The notes beneath the pieces were generated by a model. It was not told the origin of the DNA, ran no database searches, and saw only the letters and a program-made list of their open reading frames with translations. A stretch of DNA of 34,876 nucleotides from Myxococcales bacterium. GTDB taxonomy: Bacteria > Myxococcota_A > Polyangia > Polyangiales > Polyangiaceae. Location: positions 1-34,876 of the forward strand of contig CAHJWM010000052.1 in assembly GCA_903642325.1 (NCBI GenBank), written 5' to 3'. Of this stretch, positions 23,003 through 28,841 are shown one piece after another (the first letter of the stretch is position 1; every line of letters starts with the position of its first letter). The translations under genes and the position numbers were made by a program.

Positions 23003-23809
23003 TTAGCTCGTCTCTCGAGAGGCCGTAAGCGGCAAGATTTCCGCGCGCAGTGTCATGATTTGCTCGCGCGCGGCGGCTCTGAGCTTTGGTACATCGGCGT
23101 GGGTCATGCCTTGCGTGGAGATGGCCTGGCCGATGCTCAAGATCCCCCGCGCGGAGCCCGGGCGCCAATCGTGCTTCGAAAGCGCTCCGTCCGTTCCCGC
23201 GACGGCCATCGGCAGAACGTCCGCCCCGGTGTCGATGGCCAGGCGAAACGCGCCATCCTTGAAGGGCTGCATTTCGCCGGTTTTGGAACGCGTGCCCTCG
23301 GGAAAAATCATGACGGGCACACCTTGGTCCAGCCAGCGCGCGCATTTCCCTAGCGCGGCTTTGGCCGCGGAGGGTGATGCGCGATCGATGGGGACGTCTT
23401 TCACGAGACGCATGCTCCAGCCGATGAACGGAATATCGAAGAGCGAGCGCTTCGCAAGCCACTTCATTTCCCAAGGCACGTGGCAGATCAGAAACACGTC
23501 CGTGTGTGAGCAGTGGTTGCTGACGCACACGGTCTTACCTGGGTTCTTGGGGATTCGACCGTGAATGCGGAATCGCCAAACTGGCGAAAACGTGCAGGCC
23601 GCCTGCGCCGTGCGGCGCAGCGCGCGGCCGCTCCAGATGCGCCGGGGGTCGAACCAAAAGGTGAGCCCGTACACTAGAACAACCGCCGCCCAGCCGATGA
23701 TTGCCACCAAGAGCAGCTGTATACAGGCAATGATCGCGAGCAGCGTACGCACGGTTGGACCCGGGCGCGTCCTAACATACCCTCGGCCACGGGTTGCAAG
23801 CTGACGCAA
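23003..23809 (-). CDS. 1-acyl-sn-glycerol-3-phosphate acyltransferase (PlsC family)
   Basis: This 268-residue membrane enzyme probably transfers an acyl chain to lysophosphatidic acid in phospholipid synthesis. A hydrophobic helix (about 22-52) anchors it. Acyltransferase motif I is NHCSHTD (98-104; His99-x4-Asp104), motif III is FPEGTRS (169-175), and a basic region (IDRASPSAAK) follows motif II. A proline in ADVLPMAVAG fits motif IV. The usual length is 240-270. It is a single gene between convergent and tandem neighbours, with no obvious operon partner. Lysolipid acyltransferases of other specificity share these motifs, so the substrate is inferred from the family norm. Confidence 0.88.
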   Translation of the reverse strand: MRQLATRGRGYVRTRPGPTVRTLLAIIACIQLLLVAIIGWAAVVLVYGLTFWFDPRRIWSGRALRRTAQAACTFSPVWRFRIHGRIPKNPGKTVCVSNHCSHTDVFLICHVPWEMKWLAKRSLFDIPFIGWSMRLVKDVPIDRASPSAAKAALGKCARWLDQGVPVMIFPEGTRSKTGEMQPFKDGAFRLAIDTGADVLPMAVAGTDGALSKHDWRPGSARGILSIGQAISTQGMTHADVPKLRAAAREQIMTLRAEILPLTASRETS

Positions 23810-23861
23810 AAATGACTCTATCGCCGCGAACGGGAACGGGCCCGGCTCGTTTCGTGCCCGA

Positions 23862-23890
23862 GACGCGCGCCGGAGCTACCGCGCGCCGTC
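23862..23890. repeat. GC-rich imperfect hairpin between phosphatase and acyltransferase genes
   Basis: GACGCGCGC and GCGCGCCGTC pair with one bulged base around a 10-base loop, in the 112-base gap. In the plus direction it is followed by CTGTTTTTGCGG, a short T-run. Both flanking genes run minus, so it may be the end of the phosphatase transcript, but the U-run is on the wrong side for that strand. Confidence 0.25.
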
Positions 23891-23921
23891 AGTTGCCCTG
23901 TTTTTGCGGCGAGTATGAAGC

Positions 23922-25361
23922 TCAGACCTCGCGATAGCGCGCGATGAGCAGGGTCACGTCATCGTCCGCGGTTTGGTTGCAAAAATCGAGCACTTCGCCG
24001 TGGATCAGGTTGCATAACTGCTCCGCGGGCATCTCAGCGTTGGCCTTGACGAGCTCGGTCAAGCGCTCGAGACCGAATTGCTGCCGTTCAGAATTCATGG
24101 CCTCGGTCACGCCGTCCGTGTAGAGCACGAGCAGATCACCGTGCTCGAGCTGAAGCTCGCTGTCGGTGGTGAACTTGCTGACGTCTTTCATCGCCCCGAG
24201 CCAGGTGCCGGGTGTTTGCACGAGCTCGATGCGGCGCGTGCGTTTGCGGTACACGACCAGCTCTTCGTGGGCCCCCGCGAACCGCAAGCGACCATCTCTA
24301 AAGTAGCGAAATAGCGTGAAGGTGACGTGCTCCTTGTTGTGCAAGCGGTGACGAATATTGTCGTAGAGCACGGTATTCAGCGCGCTGACGATGTCTCTCG
24401 GCGCCGCATCCGGGTAGCGGCGACCGAGCGCCCCGACGACGCTTTGCACCATCAACATCACGAGGCCCGAGGTGAGCCCGTGGCCCGCCACATCGCCGAT
24501 GCCGATGAACGCTCCGCCGCCCGGCGCCGGGAAAACATCGTAATAATCCCCGCCGACCTCACTCGCGGGGGTCATGCGCGCGGCGACCTCGAGCCCCGGA
24601 ATGTCGATCGCGTCGGGCAACAAGCAAGTTTGGATGCGCGCGCCGATCTCCAGCTCCTTCTCGAGCCGCTGCTTTTGGACCATGTCTTGCGCCGCGCGCT
24701 CCAATGCTTCGAAGGCGCGGCCCGTAACGCGTAGCACCGGACCGACATACAAGGTCACGAAGGAGAAGCTCAGCGCGAGCCCGAACAAGCCCGCGCCAAA
24801 GGTCAACCACAGCAGGCGCTGACGCAAATTTTCGCCGGCTTCCAGGCGAGCCGTCGAGGCAATCATGGCCACGCGTCCTATGAGAGCGCCCTCCACGCTG
24901 CGACTGCTCCAAGAAGAGATGAAGCTGCCCGATACGTTCAGCTTGCGCTCCGGCCCTCGAAAGAAGCTCTCGCTCGGTCCGGGCAGCTCACCTTGCAGGG
25001 CCAATACCTTGCCCTGGGCATCGGTGACGACGATCGCCTGCACGTCGCTATCGGTCGCATAATGTTCGAAAGAATCGCGGATCACGGGCCCGTCTTCGAG
25101 CAGCATGCCGAGCTCGGCGTGCTCGGCCACCTCGGCCGCGCCTTGAGCGACTTTCCAGCCCAAATCTTGCCGGATCGAAGGCGTGAGCCAGTGAAAAATG
25201 TGCGTCACGAGTAGGATTACGAAGGTGCACAAGGCCGCGAGCAACAGCGCGATGAAGGCGGTCAAGGTGATCTTCAAGCGTGAGCTCGAGAGCATCCGCT
25301 TGCGCTCGGCGAGCGGTAATAGCGTCGCGGGCGCAGAGGCGAGGGACAGCGTCGCGGCCAT
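23922..25361 (-). CDS. Membrane-anchored PP2C/SpoIIE-type serine phosphatase
   Basis: This 479-residue protein starts at ATG 25361, two bases after the stop of the upstream cyclase gene; the longer frame to 25580 runs inside that gene. Layout: cytoplasmic N-terminus, transmembrane helix (about 33-56), periplasmic sensor of about 125 residues (57-182), second helix (184-206), a HAMP-like/coiled linker (207-240) and a PP2C catalytic domain (about 258-479). Metal-binding acids are visible: Asp272 in GGDYYDV, Asp290 in GIGDVAGHG, Asp416 in YTDGVTE and Asp468 in ADDDVT. The domain resembles SpoIIE, RsbU and SiaA, which dephosphorylate STAS-type proteins. The nearby STAS-like gene (27627-28013) is its likely target; what the periplasmic domain senses is unknown. 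Confidence 0.88.
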   Translation of the reverse strand: MAATLSLASAPATLLPLAERKRMLSSSRLKITLTAFIALLLAALCTFVILLVTHIFHWLTPSIRQDLGWKVAQGAAEVAEHAELGMLLEDGPVIRDSFEHYATDSDVQAIVVTDAQGKVLALQGELPGPSESFFRGPERKLNVSGSFISSWSSRSVEGALIGRVAMIASTARLEAGENLRQRLLWLTFGAGLFGLALSFSFVTLYVGPVLRVTGRAFEALERAAQDMVQKQRLEKELEIGARIQTCLLPDAIDIPGLEVAARMTPASEVGGDYYDVFPAPGGGAFIGIGDVAGHGLTSGLVMLMVQSVVGALGRRYPDAAPRDIVSALNTVLYDNIRHRLHNKEHVTFTLFRYFRDGRLRFAGAHEELVVYRKRTRRIELVQTPGTWLGAMKDVSKFTTDSELQLEHGDLLVLYTDGVTEAMNSERQQFGLERLTELVKANAEMPAEQLCNLIHGEVLDFCNQTADDDVTLLIARYREV

Positions 25362-25363
25362 GC

Positions 25364-26998
25364 TCAGATCCGAATGCGATCGCGCCCCGCGAGCTTGGCC
25401 GCATACAGCCGCTGGTCGGCAATCAGCACCAAGTCGTCCAAGTTTTGGCCGTCGACCGGAAAGGTGGCGATGCCGCCGCTTACCGTGACGCGGAACGTTC
25501 CAGGGCCGCCGCCGTCGAAGGTCATGCTCGAAAATTCCGCCATCACCCGCGACAAGATCTCGCGCGCGCTCTCCGCCCATTCGCCATAGAAGGCCACTAC
25601 GAATTCTTCGCCGCCCCAGCGGCCGCGCAGGTCCGGCAAGCGAAAGCGCGAGCCGAGCAGCGCGCCGAAGCCGGCCAGCACCTTGTCACCTACGGCGTGG
25701 CCGTAAGTATCGTTGATGTTCTTGAAGCGATCGATATCCAGAAAACAGACGGAAAGATGGCGTTTGGCGCGCTCGGCCTCGGCCAATCGCGCCTGCATCG
25801 ATTCAGTGAAGGCACGGCGCGTCAATAAGCCCGTCAGCGGGTCCCTATTCGACTGCTCGCGGAACACGCGCGTGCGCTCTAGGCGCACGCGCAAGCGGCC
25901 GATCAGCTCCCGGTCGGAGCACCGCTCGGACAAGGCATCGTCGGCGCCGGCGTCGTAGGCCACTAGGCGCCCGGACTCGCCTTTGACGCGCACCAAAATG
26001 GGTAGATCTCGCCATCTCGGAATGGCTCGCACCAGGCGGCACACGTGCTCCGAGTTGTCCTCGTTGCGATCGATCAAGAGGGCCGCGGGCTGGGTGGCAT
26101 CGAGCGTCTCCACGATTTGCTCGCGCTCGTCGAACGTGTTCATGCTTACCCCCAACGGAGCGAGCAGGGCAGAGAGGCGCGCCGCCTCGACCTCGTCTTG
26201 ACTCAAAAAGAGCAGGCGCGGGCGCTCCGGTCTATCACGCACGTCCAAGCTCTCGAGCATGGCCATGAGCTTGTCGCCAGCGAGGGGCTTGGGCATCACC
26301 ATCGCCGCTCGGCTTTCCGCGGCCGCCAAGCGCTGCGCGTAAGTCGGGCTTTTGGCCACGACGATCATCGGGCAATGACGGCTGCCGAGCAACTCGCGAA
26401 GGCTCGAGGCCAGCGTGCGGTTCGCCTCCGGCGTGTCGTCGTCGAAGTCCATCACCAAGCCGTTGAAGCTCGCGCCCGTTGCCATTGCCAGCGCCTCGGA
26501 CGCGTTGCCGGCGATCGAGACCGCGAACTTACGGCGCGCGGCCGCGCGCGCAATCTCTTCCGCCAGCCCTTCGTCGTGAATGACGAGCAAGATGCCGCGG
26601 CGGGCGGCGGCCTCGGACGAGGGCACGGGCGCGGCCTCGAGCTCGCAGGCGGCCCGCGCGGCACGGTACGCGGCGTCGATCTGACGCCAAGTAGCGTCGT
26701 TCGACTGGAGCTCGCCGTCGGCCATCGCGGCGAGCGCGTCCTCGATGTGAAAGACGGCGTTGGCGACTTCGGTGAACGCATTCTGTTCGGCGCGGATCAT
26801 CAGATCGTGGGCGACCTTTTGACTCACGCGCAGATCTTCTTTGGCGCTCGTGCGCCGTGTCGCGTCGAGCGCAACGCCGAGCGCTCTCACCGCCGCATCT
26901 AAGCTGGAAGCGTCGTGCCCCAGCGCCCGCAGCTCCAGCTGCGGACCCTTTGAGGGCTCGACCGGCTGTACTGACAGGGCCGCCGGAACCGGTACCAT
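25364..26998 (-). CDS. HPt-REC-REC-GGEEF diguanylate cyclase
   Basis: This 544-residue cytoplasmic protein should make c-di-GMP. The catalytic domain (about 382-544) has RWGGEEFVVAF (GGEEF at 462-466) and an intact RLPD inhibitory site (453-456), five residues upstream as in PleD. Two receiver-like domains precede it. REC1 (about 134-250) keeps a candidate phosphoacceptor Asp184 and Lys237 (MPKPL). REC2 (about 260-378) keeps Asp310 but lacks the switch lysine (DALSERCSD). The first 125 residues are helical and resemble a histidine phosphotransfer domain, with His64 in KVAHDLMIRAEQNAFTEVANAV where HPt proteins have AHxLKG. Its stop is two bases from the phosphatase start, so the two are co-translated. 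Confidence 0.88.
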   Translation of the reverse strand: MVPVPAALSVQPVEPSKGPQLELRALGHDASSLDAAVRALGVALDATRRTSAKEDLRVSQKVAHDLMIRAEQNAFTEVANAVFHIEDALAAMADGELQSNDATWRQIDAAYRAARAACELEAAPVPSSEAAARRGILLVIHDEGLAEEIARAAARRKFAVSIAGNASEALAMATGASFNGLVMDFDDDTPEANRTLASSLRELLGSRHCPMIVVAKSPTYAQRLAAAESRAAMVMPKPLAGDKLMAMLESLDVRDRPERPRLLFLSQDEVEAARLSALLAPLGVSMNTFDEREQIVETLDATQPAALLIDRNEDNSEHVCRLVRAIPRWRDLPILVRVKGESGRLVAYDAGADDALSERCSDRELIGRLRVRLERTRVFREQSNRDPLTGLLTRRAFTESMQARLAEAERAKRHLSVCFLDIDRFKNINDTYGHAVGDKVLAGFGALLGSRFRLPDLRGRWGGEEFVVAFYGEWAESAREILSRVMAEFSSMTFDGGGPGTFRVTVSGGIATFPVDGQNLDDLVLIADQRLYAAKLAGRDRIRI

Positions 26999-27012
26999 GG
27001 TGTAGTCGTAAC

Positions 27013-27025
27013 GGCCTTCGAGGCC
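27013..27025. promoter_or_regulatory. Short palindrome GGCCT-TCG-AGGCC between divergent signalling gene pairs
   Basis: A perfect 5-base-arm inverted repeat lies 15 bases upstream of the cyclase start, inside the 107-base divergent promoter region (26999-27105). It could be an operator shared by both gene pairs. No convincing -10/-35 boxes are seen nearby. Confidence 0.25.
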
Positions 27026-27105
27026 CTGGATTAAGCGACCGTGGCCGGCACGCTCGGGTCTTAACGTTTGGGCGCGGTGCGCCGTTGCATGGTCGGCGAG
27101 GAACC

Positions 27106-27630
27106 TTGAAAAACGACGACGATCTAGGCTTCTGTGAGCTCAGCTTCCAACGAAGACCAGAGCTCGTGTCCATCGTACGCCGTTTCGTCTCGGACTTTTA
27201 CGACCGCACCTTGGCTGACGCGGATGCGTGCTCGCGGGTGGCACTGGCTACGCACGAGCTGCTGGAAAATGCGGTCAAATATGCCAGCGACGGCATGGCC
27301 ACCGTGCGCATCGAAGTCACCGCCCGAGGCGCCGCCGGCGCCCACATCCGCATCCGGACCCGCAATCACGCGGCGCCCGAGGACGCGGCCTACATCCGGC
27401 GTACGATTGACGAGCTGCGCGGGAGCCCGGACCCCAACCTTTATTACCTGGATGTGATTCGCCGTAATGCGAGGCGAACGGATGGTTCTGGCCTAGGGCT
27501 CGCGCGGATCGCCGCCGAAGCGGAGATGGAAGTCAGCGTGAAATGCGGAGCTCGCGGGACCGTCACCGTGATCGCCGAAACCGATGTGAAATTGAGCGCC
27601 GTCGCCGTGAGCGCCCGAGGTATTGCATGA
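27106..27630 (+). CDS. GHKL-ATPase serine kinase / anti-sigma-factor-like (RsbW/SiaB-type)
   Basis: This 174-residue protein probably phosphorylates the STAS-like protein encoded next. I chose TTG 27106 because a GAGGA ribosome-binding site ends 4 bases upstream and the product starts just before the domain; the frame stays open to 26857 without a better start. The N-box HELLENAVKYA (about 50-60; Glu51, Asn55) and the G-box DGSGLGLARI (126-135) are the ATP-binding motifs of the GHKL fold. There is no histidine-kinase dimerisation helix, which supports an RsbW/SiaB-like serine or threonine kinase. It overlaps the next gene by 4 bases (ATGA). Alternative role: an anti-sigma factor for an unseen sigma factor. 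Confidence 0.8.
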   Translation: MKNDDDLGFCELSFQRRPELVSIVRRFVSDFYDRTLADADACSRVALATHELLENAVKYASDGMATVRIEVTARGAAGAHIRIRTRNHAAPEDAAYIRRTIDELRGSPDPNLYYLDVIRRNARRTDGSGLGLARIAAEAEMEVSVKCGARGTVTVIAETDVKLSAVAVSARGIA

Positions 27631-28013
27631 GCGCCCTGTCTCAGCCCATTCAGTCTGCCGAATTGAACGCCACCGTGACCATGGTCGATCACGCTATGGT
27701 CGTGCGCATGTCGGGAACCGCCGACCTTCGCGTGACCGATACGGTGGAAAAGTTATTGTCCAACGTTCATGCCCAGGCCACGCGCGATCACGTCGGAGAG
27801 GTAAAGGTAGACTTGCGTACGTTGGAGTTCATGAACTCCTCCTGCTTCAAGAGCTTCGTCAGCTGGATCAGCCAGGTCCAAGACCTTGCCGAGAGCGCTC
27901 AGTACCGCATCCATTTCTTCTCGAATCCGGCGATCCTCTGGCAACGGCGCAGCCTGAACGCACTGTCCTGTTTTGCCGCGCACTTGATCACCATCGATTC
28001 GACCGCGAACTAG
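27627..28013 (+). CDS. STAS/SiaC-like regulatory phosphoprotein
   Basis: This 128-residue small protein starts at ATG 27627, overlapping the kinase stop by 4 bases; the longer frame from 27543 runs inside the kinase gene. Its core, VKVDLRTLEFMNSSCFKSFVSWI (positions 59-81), matches the STAS-type phosphorylation loop, where anti-sigma antagonists have DSSG and SiaC has an NTSS-like motif. Ser71 or Ser72 is the likely phosphorylated residue, and the usual Gly is replaced by Cys73. The second half (IHFFSNPAILWQRRSLNALSCFA) is less like RsbV/SpoIIAA. With the adjacent kinase and the nearby PP2C phosphatase it forms a partner-switching set. The target partner, possibly the cyclase, is inferred. 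Confidence 0.75.
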   Translation: MSALSQPIQSAELNATVTMVDHAMVVRMSGTADLRVTDTVEKLLSNVHAQATRDHVGEVKVDLRTLEFMNSSCFKSFVSWISQVQDLAESAQYRIHFFSNPAILWQRRSLNALSCFAAHLITIDSTAN

Positions 28014-28100
28014 GACGGCGGCGGCAGCTTTGGCCGCTAAAGAATCGCGCGGCGAAACACCGGTTGAAAGATGGCGAGGCTCGGGCTTACATGCCCGGCC

Positions 28101-28841
28101 ATGCGAATAAGTATCGGTGGGCTCGTGCTTTTGGTAGCGACCGTCTCGACTTTGGGCTGCTCGGAGAAGGACGCCACGAAGTGCCAAGAAGCGCTCGACG
28201 GTACGCGCAAATCCGTGACCGCTGATGATGCTTCGTTGACTACGCAGTGGCGCGCGCGCGCCTACAAATACTGCGCGGATAGCGGCCCCCTTACCTCGCT
28301 CGACAAAGAGATCAGCGAGAAGCAGACCGCTCAAGCTGCGGCCAAGACGCTCGAGACTCGGCGCGTGGCGCTGAACGCAGGACTGCTCAAGACCTTCGTC
28401 ACCTGGGCGGGCGACAACAAGGTCGCCCCTGATCACGCGTCTGTTTCGCCGAAGTGCGATGGGGACGATCCGGACGCGGGCGCGCCCAAGCCGCCATCGA
28501 CCGATCCCAGGGCGAGCGATCGTTTTTGCACCGCAACCCGGGCCGCCGGCAACAACGTCCTCAGCGCGCGCTACTGGGAGGCAGACAAGACCATCGAGCT
28601 GTTCATGACCAAGGCCCCGGCGCCCGCCAGCTGCGACGACCTCGGCCCCCATAACGTGATCAGGACCTGGGATGTTCCCGCCGCCAACGGCGCGAGCGTG
28701 AAACGAACGCGCTGTGCGCTGAGTGGCGCGCTGACCGGTATGCAGGCCGTAGTCAGCCAAGCCGCCAACGCCGCCGTATATGTCTTCTCGCCGAGCTACT
28801 TGCTCAAGGACCCCGCGCTCAAGAAAATCGCGGGCGAGTGA
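28101..28841 (+). CDS. Putative lipoprotein of unknown function
   Basis: From ATG 28101 this is a 246-residue protein with a signal peptide and a lipobox-like TLGC (Cys20); the -3 residue is Thr, which is atypical. An upstream in-frame ATG at 28071 has a GAAAG stretch before it and gives a longer n-region, so that start is also possible. A small hairpin (CGGGC...GCCCG) lies between the two starts. The mature protein has a Lys/Ala-rich helical segment (about 65-115; SEKQTAQAAAKTLETRRVAL), an Asp/Pro-rich linker (about 118-140) and several cysteines. I recognise no family. It is not obviously connected to the signalling genes upstream. Confidence 0.7.
   Translation: MRISIGGLVLLVATVSTLGCSEKDATKCQEALDGTRKSVTADDASLTTQWRARAYKYCADSGPLTSLDKEISEKQTAQAAAKTLETRRVALNAGLLKTFVTWAGDNKVAPDHASVSPKCDGDDPDAGAPKPPSTDPRASDRFCTATRAAGNNVLSARYWEADKTIELFMTKAPAPASCDDLGPHNVIRTWDVPAANGASVKRTRCALSGALTGMQAVVSQAANAAVYVFSPSYLLKDPALKKIAGE

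Follow-up and report, generated by a model that had tools for sequence, protein, structure and literature searches.

A probable SiaABC-like partner switch beside a diguanylate cyclase in a Myxococcales genome, and its possible role in cyclic di-GMP synthesis

We consider a divergent group of four genes on contig CAHJWM010000052.1 of a Myxococcales bacterium (assembly GCA_903642325.1), which encode a membrane PP2C phosphatase, a diguanylate cyclase, a GHKL kinase and a small STAS-like protein, and which may together form a phosphorylation-controlled switch of cyclic di-GMP (c-di-GMP) synthesis. The whole contig, 34,876 bases long, is the stretch of DNA that was analysed, and we refer to it as the window. 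The phosphatase and cyclase genes are separated by exactly 2 bases on the minus strand, and the kinase and STAS genes overlap by 4 bases (ATGA) on the plus strand; an earlier note on this DNA had described these four genes with their spacings and overlap, and a check of the open reading frame coordinates found its description correct to the base. Along the contig the GC fraction varies between 0.61 and 0.69, and no step in it points to a chimera; Rfam gave no match at its gathering thresholds. A consensus scan of positions 23700-28200 yielded one promoter, no more than shuffled sequence (mean 0.8), and a terminator scan yielded 5 against a shuffled mean of 3.5. The features of the locus are collected in Table 1.

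Table 1. Genes and sites of the divergent four-gene locus, in window positions.
Feature	Position	Strand	Remarks
Membrane PP2C (SpoIIE-type) phosphatase	23922..25361	-	ATG start, 479 residues
Diguanylate cyclase (Hpt-like region, REC1, degenerate REC2, GGDEF)	25364..26998	-	544 residues
GGEEF motif, cyclase residues 462-466	25601..25615	-	each position agrees in 28 to 30 of 30 relatives
I-site RxxD (RLPD), cyclase residues 453-456	25631..25642	-	R and D in 30 of 30 relatives
Divergent intergenic region, 107 bases	26999..27105		presumed promoters for both gene pairs
GHKL serine/threonine switch kinase, slr1658/SiaB type	27106..27630	+	TTG start after GAGGAA, 174 residues
STAS-fold small protein, slr1659 type, candidate phosphoacceptor	27627..28013	+	ATG start, 128 residues
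Asn70-Ser71-Ser72, predicted phosphosite and docking triad	27834..27842	+	aligned with SiaC Asn67-Thr68-Ser69

The phosphatase is assigned by Pfam to the SpoIIE/PP2C family (1.4e-40), and its motifs GGDYYD (270), GDVAGHG (289), YTDGVTEA (414) and DDDVTLL (466) are all intact. Two hydrophobic segments, judged by eye, flank a region that presumably lies outside the membrane and acts as a sensor, and the PP2C domain follows them. This catalytic domain is 59% identical to that of a phosphatase in another genome of our sample (G021), whose gene adjoins that genome's own GHKL and STAS genes (locus L027). The sensor region is also found on hybrid histidine kinases with HisKA, HATPase, REC and Hpt domains (L122, L124). 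Against the NCBIfam profile of SiaA, the phosphatase of the SiaABCD system of Pseudomonas aeruginosa, the window protein scores 57.2 bits (1.2e-15), far below the curated cut-off of 700.

For the kinase, Pfam gives HATPase_c_2 (1.7e-9), and the best match in NCBIfam is the slr1658 superfamily (NF047703; 5.3e-13, 48.8 bits, under the curated cut-off of 100). Two further profiles, SiaB_fam_kinase in NCBIfam (7.8e-4, 19 bits, cut-off 85) and DUF6272 in Pfam (8.5e-5, 22.7 bits, cut-off 26.6), are also matched below their cut-offs. The predicted structure (pLDDT 87.9) has SiaB as its best fold match, with a Z score of 15.5 over 150 residues, followed by a match at 14.3. We take HELLEN (50) to be the N box and GSGLGL (127) to be the G2 box; at the position where we expect the Asp of the G1 box there is instead an Asn (Asn87, in RNHA), and this residue is Asn in all nine aligned sequences.

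The best NCBIfam family of the small protein is the slr1659 superfamily (NF047705; 6.5e-10, 39.3 bits, under the cut-off of 100). The comparison with STAS and SiaC profiles that the earlier note had called for gave a STAS match at 0.0033, under the cut-off, while the Pfam family of SiaC (PF09345, DUF1987) was unmatched at E-values up to 10. The predicted structure (pLDDT 91.5) has a STAS fold, and its matches include RsfB (Z 13.0 over 105 residues) and SiaC, taken either from its complex with SiaD (Z 12.9, 122 residues) or from its complex with SiaB (Z 12.8, 124 residues). That is, the SiaC chains give the longest matched stretch, at Z scores tied with those of anti-anti-sigma factors; in a plain Foldseek search SpoIIAA-type chains came out on top and the best SiaC chain ranked 30th. 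Searches of solved structures by sequence, with the STAS and kinase alignments, returned only weak matches, and a plasmid search with the STAS protein found none.

When a profile of 33 related STAS domains was compared with a profile of six SiaC proteins from Myxococcota, the probability was 96%. It remained at 96% when one domain was left out (L197:7073-7369), which scores over the Pfam SiaC cut-off and under that of slr1659 and so links the two families by sequence. The profile alignment sets FMNSSCFK of the window protein on YMN[ST]SSxK, and Ser71 therefore corresponds to Thr68 of SiaC. The triad around it is invariant in 10 aligned sequences; in SiaC, according to passages of PMC8457831, a triple mutant of Asn67, Thr68 and Ser69 loses binding to SiaD.

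The phosphatase, the kinase and the STAS protein are thus encoded together, with their catalytic and phosphosite motifs intact save for the Asn in place of the kinase G1 Asp. Because the kinase is nearest to SiaB in fold and the small protein matches SiaC together with its N-[ST]-S site, we regard the trio as very probably a SiaABC-like partner switch. The label of a true SiaABCD system was considered and rejected: PF09345 is absent, and the scores for DUF6272, SiaA, SiaB and SiaD all lie under their cut-offs. In the window genome as a whole PF09345 has no match at E-values up to 1e-5. Genes of the SiaC family occur in five of 377 Myxococcota genomes, and two of the six SiaC loci that we fetched (L246, L248) also hold GHKL, PP2C and GGDEF genes; both come from one genome (G110), which is placed in one family with that of the window.

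We compared the kinship of the three proteins across the 35 loci that contain exactly one STAS, one GHKL and one PP2C gene each, the window and 34 others. The seven loci nearest to the window are identical for all three proteins (in the GHKL ranking, places seven and eight are equal when given to two decimals), and this holds although the window phosphatase lies on the opposite strand, behind the cyclase. In a tree of the phosphatases the window joins these seven loci with supports of 88/91. The seven should not be counted as seven independent cases, because six of them are Polyangium-type close relatives of one another. On this sequence kinship, we take the phosphatase to go with the same switch as the kinase and the STAS protein.

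The fourth protein, the cyclase, contains a GGDEF domain (Pfam, 1.1e-37) with a GGEEF motif, which we take to be the active site, and an RxxD motif, presumably the site of product inhibition. The earlier note had called it a phosphorelay-type cyclase. As far as architecture goes the term is apt, since the order is Hpt-like region, REC, REC, GGDEF, but the residues of a phosphorelay are partly lost. The Hpt label rests on two relatives with REC and Hpt domains (L119 and L121) and not on a Pfam match in the window; around His64 the window protein reads AHDLMIRAE, against AHRLRGTAG in intact relatives. The first receiver retains Asp184, Lys237 and, from the acidic pocket, Asp142, and its conserved Ser/Thr has become Ala215. 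The second receiver keeps Asp310; the customary Lys and Thr are missing from it, as are one or two acidic residues. The REC match in Pfam stands at 27.3 bits, below the cut-off of 30.2.

It is tempting to treat these degenerate domains as proof that the phosphorelay was lost. This argument is weakened by an alignment of 30 cyclase relatives, in which the column of the Hpt His holds His in 13 and a gap in 3, and the Asp of REC1 is present in 12. Because degeneration of the Hpt box is widespread among the relatives too, the lost residues give mild support only to an input other than a phosphorelay. The best NCBIfam match of the cyclase is the PleD profile (159.8 bits, below the cut-off of 474), while the SiaD profile (148.3 bits, cut-off 290) aligns with its GGDEF end only. 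Similar to PleD-type cyclases, the protein has two receivers, here weak ones, before a GGDEF domain with intact GGEEF motif and I-site; it differs from them by its extra, degenerate Hpt-like N-terminus and by a REC2 whose phosphorylation residues are gone apart from the one Asp.

How might such a cyclase be tied to the switch? SiaABCD, with the phosphatase SiaA, the kinase SiaB, the phosphoacceptor SiaC and the cyclase SiaD, combines the same four activities as our locus, and the likeness extends to the fold of the kinase, nearest to SiaB, and to the small protein, which resembles SiaC in fold and shares its N-[ST]-S triad. The two differ in the cyclase, which is Hpt-REC-REC-GGDEF here and stalk-GGDEF in SiaD, and in layout, the Sia genes forming one operon and ours two divergent pairs. 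The slr1658 and slr1659 superfamilies are the best families for our kinase and small protein, both below cut-off. In Synechocystis, disruption of slr1658 is reported, in passages of PMC7555055, to have an effect both on how cells recover from iron limitation and on how strongly the redox protein Pgr5 is expressed; the passages of that paper that deal with slr1658 mention no cyclase, in which they differ from our locus.

There is precedent for diguanylate cyclases under the control of STAS proteins. Passages of PMC7647112 and PMC8457831 describe SiaABCD as a known partner switch controlling a diguanylate cyclase, and describe STAS proteins that control such cyclases in the BgrU/BgrW/BgrV-BgrR system of Sinorhizobium meliloti and the HsbR-HsbA-HsbD system of P. 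aeruginosa. In Moorella thermoacetica, according to passages of PMC7647112, the stressosome kinase MtT acts on the cyclase MtG. This is again a system of STAS protein and switch kinase acting on a cyclase, and the Moorella STAS protein 3ztb is among the fold matches of our small protein (Z 10.6); it differs in that the kinase MtT itself binds the cyclase, in the setting of a stressosome scaffold.

Because of these STAS and SiaC precedents, the 2-base spacing between cyclase and phosphatase genes and the start of the kinase gene only 107 bases away, we propose the cyclase as the output of the switch. By analogy with the cycle known for this family, the GHKL kinase would place a phosphate on Ser71 (or Ser72) of the STAS protein, and the membrane phosphatase, driven by its own sensor region, would strip the phosphate off again. 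Unphosphorylated STAS protein would then bind the cyclase and alter c-di-GMP synthesis, as SiaC does with SiaD. We infer this binding, and its sign, from position and analogy only. The link to the cyclase is plausible, given one operon-like arrangement and the analogies above. Overall, we put the probability that a partner switch of SiaABC type has the neighbouring cyclase as its output here at roughly 45%, a figure that draws on one genome.

If switch and cyclase belong together, we might expect to find them together elsewhere. We therefore examined 98 non-identical STAS-family domains from 80 Myxococcota loci, the window included and six identical copies dropped. A GHKL gene lies within 2 kb of 79 of the 98 domains and a PP2C gene within 5 kb of 72, whereas a GGDEF gene lies within 5 kb of a single one, that of the window. 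When we retain only those 66 domains with 5 kb of sequence on both sides, the counts are 54 for GHKL, 51 for PP2C and 1 for GGDEF. As a control, the GGDEF profile detects the window cyclase and those of L119-L121. The earlier note had named beforehand, as one of the outcomes that would refute it, a lack of conservation of the four genes together, and this is what we find; the distant relation to the Sia switch that it had proposed survives in the fold and profile resemblance of kinase and small protein to SiaB and SiaC.

Several further results, like the count of GGDEF neighbours, weigh against the cyclase as output or against the closeness to SiaABCD on which that reading draws. In a comparison that covers 77 of the 80 loci, GGDEF genes make up 1 of 317 genes near the switch (two genes away at most) and 1 of 264 genes far from it, which is no enrichment; by chance alone, from 60 GGDEF matches in eight genomes (about 79 Mb), about 0.7 of the 98 would have such a neighbour within 5 kb. 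Starting from the cyclase, we found its relatives at 39 further sites, spread over 36 of the 376 other Myxococcota genomes. Of these 39 sites 30 were checked, in loci of about 4 kb, and not one has a STAS, GHKL or PP2C gene within about 1.5 kb, and L119-L121, with flanks of about 6 kb, have none beside the cyclase either. In the STAS tree the window and L219 form a pair (99/94), and the remaining six of the nearest loci fall outside the small group of the window, and in the kinase tree it joins L032 at 82/83; the similarities of the window phosphatase correlate at only 0.44 with those of the STAS proteins and 0.46 with those of the GHKL kinases. The profile link to SiaC falls to 79% with the 10 closest relatives alone and to 58% with the 13 closest. 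Finally, on a reading of its sequence, the cyclase is without a recognised SiaD-type stalk.

As no co-occurrence was found elsewhere, the cyclase and the switch make up, within this sample, distinct families that are joined here. One candidate for a second such module, L185, was rejected: its GGDEF gene lies 6.6 kb from the STAS gene, and neither PP2C nor GHKL was found there. A literature search by titles and abstract openings, outside which most subscription papers fall, found no description of this arrangement.

These counts bear most directly on the possibility that the switch is real and its output lies elsewhere, in a histidine kinase or other phosphorelay protein, a serine/threonine kinase or an anti-sigma-like factor, the cyclase being a chance neighbour co-transcribed with the phosphatase. 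We consider this a serious contender, if somewhat short of an even chance. The GGDEF adjacency in one of 98 is about at chance level, and members of the cyclase family have no switch genes beside them in those loci that were checked. Moreover, hybrid, Hpt and serine/threonine kinases recur near switch genes: a hybrid or Hpt histidine kinase gene adjoins the GHKL or STAS gene in, for example, L032, L052, L054, L055, L056 and L223-L226, as found with home-made profiles and checked with Pfam for L032, L052, L054 and L056. In two further loci a STAS domain is in one frame with histidine-kinase and receiver domains (L227:5294-7228, where Pfam agrees, and L228:7119-9062, from our own profiles). Set against this are the 2-base spacing of cyclase and phosphatase genes, the divergent intergenic region common to both pairs, and the sparseness of GGDEF genes in the window genome, where 16 matches in 5.83 Mb give a chance of about 3% of finding one within 5 kb.

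Another possibility is that the cyclase is governed by a phosphorelay through REC1, and perhaps the Hpt-like region, while the trio acts on another process and all four genes are co-expressed for one response; Asp184, Lys237 and Asp142 of REC1, the sensor region shared with the HisKA-HATPase-REC-Hpt proteins and the REC and Hpt domains of the relatives in L119 and L121 speak for it, but the degenerate Hpt box and REC2, the conserved Ser/Thr missing from both receivers and the REC score below the Pfam cut-off make it improbable.

Returning to the cyclase as output of the switch, the related loci suggest where such an arrangement could have come from. All seven nearest loci (L027, L049, L050, L051, L053, L188, L219) have a cluster in the gene order beta-barrel-like, cupredoxin-like, multihaem cytochrome, PP2C, GHKL, STAS. 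In L049, the beta-barrel and cytochrome genes match Pfam below the cut-offs and the cupredoxin gene above; the cytochromes of the seven loci have four or five CxxCH motifs, and that of the more distant L226 has two. A redox-type cluster of varying order also occurs in L055, L131 and L226. The cluster resembles a redox conduit of the cell envelope that passes its signal to a partner switch.

In the window, profiles of the beta-barrel and multihaem proteins match nothing at E-values up to 1, and one multihaem relative (1.4e-11) is found elsewhere in the window genome. A match of the cupredoxin profile in the window was set aside: it begins at the start of a TonB-receptor-like open reading frame, probably through a shared carboxypeptidase-regulatory-like domain. 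The PP2C-GHKL-STAS module seems to have been rewired at this locus: no redox-type genes like those beside the nearest relatives were found in the window, the phosphatase carries a sensor region that elsewhere in our sample belongs to hybrid histidine kinases, and upstream of the phosphatase stands a cyclase from a distinct REC-REC-GGDEF family.

Cyclases of another kind do recur beside the switch. Pfam-confirmed class III (adenylate/guanylate) cyclase genes are present in 10 loci (L170, L171, L174, L176, L179, L181, L192, L193, L194, L198), and in the same near/far comparison they make up 9 of 317 near and 0 of 264 far genes, the cyclase of L179 falling outside this tally; our home-made class III profile also tagged the PP2C genes of L137 and L169, and both were excluded. 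Coupling of this type of switch to nucleotide cyclases would therefore not be odd. The window genome itself has one class III cyclase match. In one of these loci, L170, a fusion protein (L170:5616-6785) combines a STAS-family domain with a methyltransferase-like one; PP2C, GHKL and another STAS gene belong to the same cluster.

One could go further, and see in slr1658, slr1659 and PP2C a plug-in controller of cyclic-nucleotide synthesis in myxobacteria, coupled to class III cyclases in several lineages and here rewired from a redox-linked porin-cupredoxin-multihaem-cytochrome setting to a partly phosphorelay-deaf REC-REC-GGDEF cyclase, so that a c-di-GMP switch evolved separately from SiaABCD. 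As a whole we consider this broader scheme unlikely, though worth stating.

Control of the cyclase by the switch, if real, would provide a target for a second SiaC-like branch, of the slr1659 type, and would show that a multi-receiver cyclase can respond to serine phosphorylation in place of a phosphorelay. If there is no such control, the trio of PP2C phosphatase, kinase and STAS protein is still a recurring myxobacterial module, whose neighbours offer multihaem cytochromes, class III cyclases and hybrid kinases as candidate outputs.

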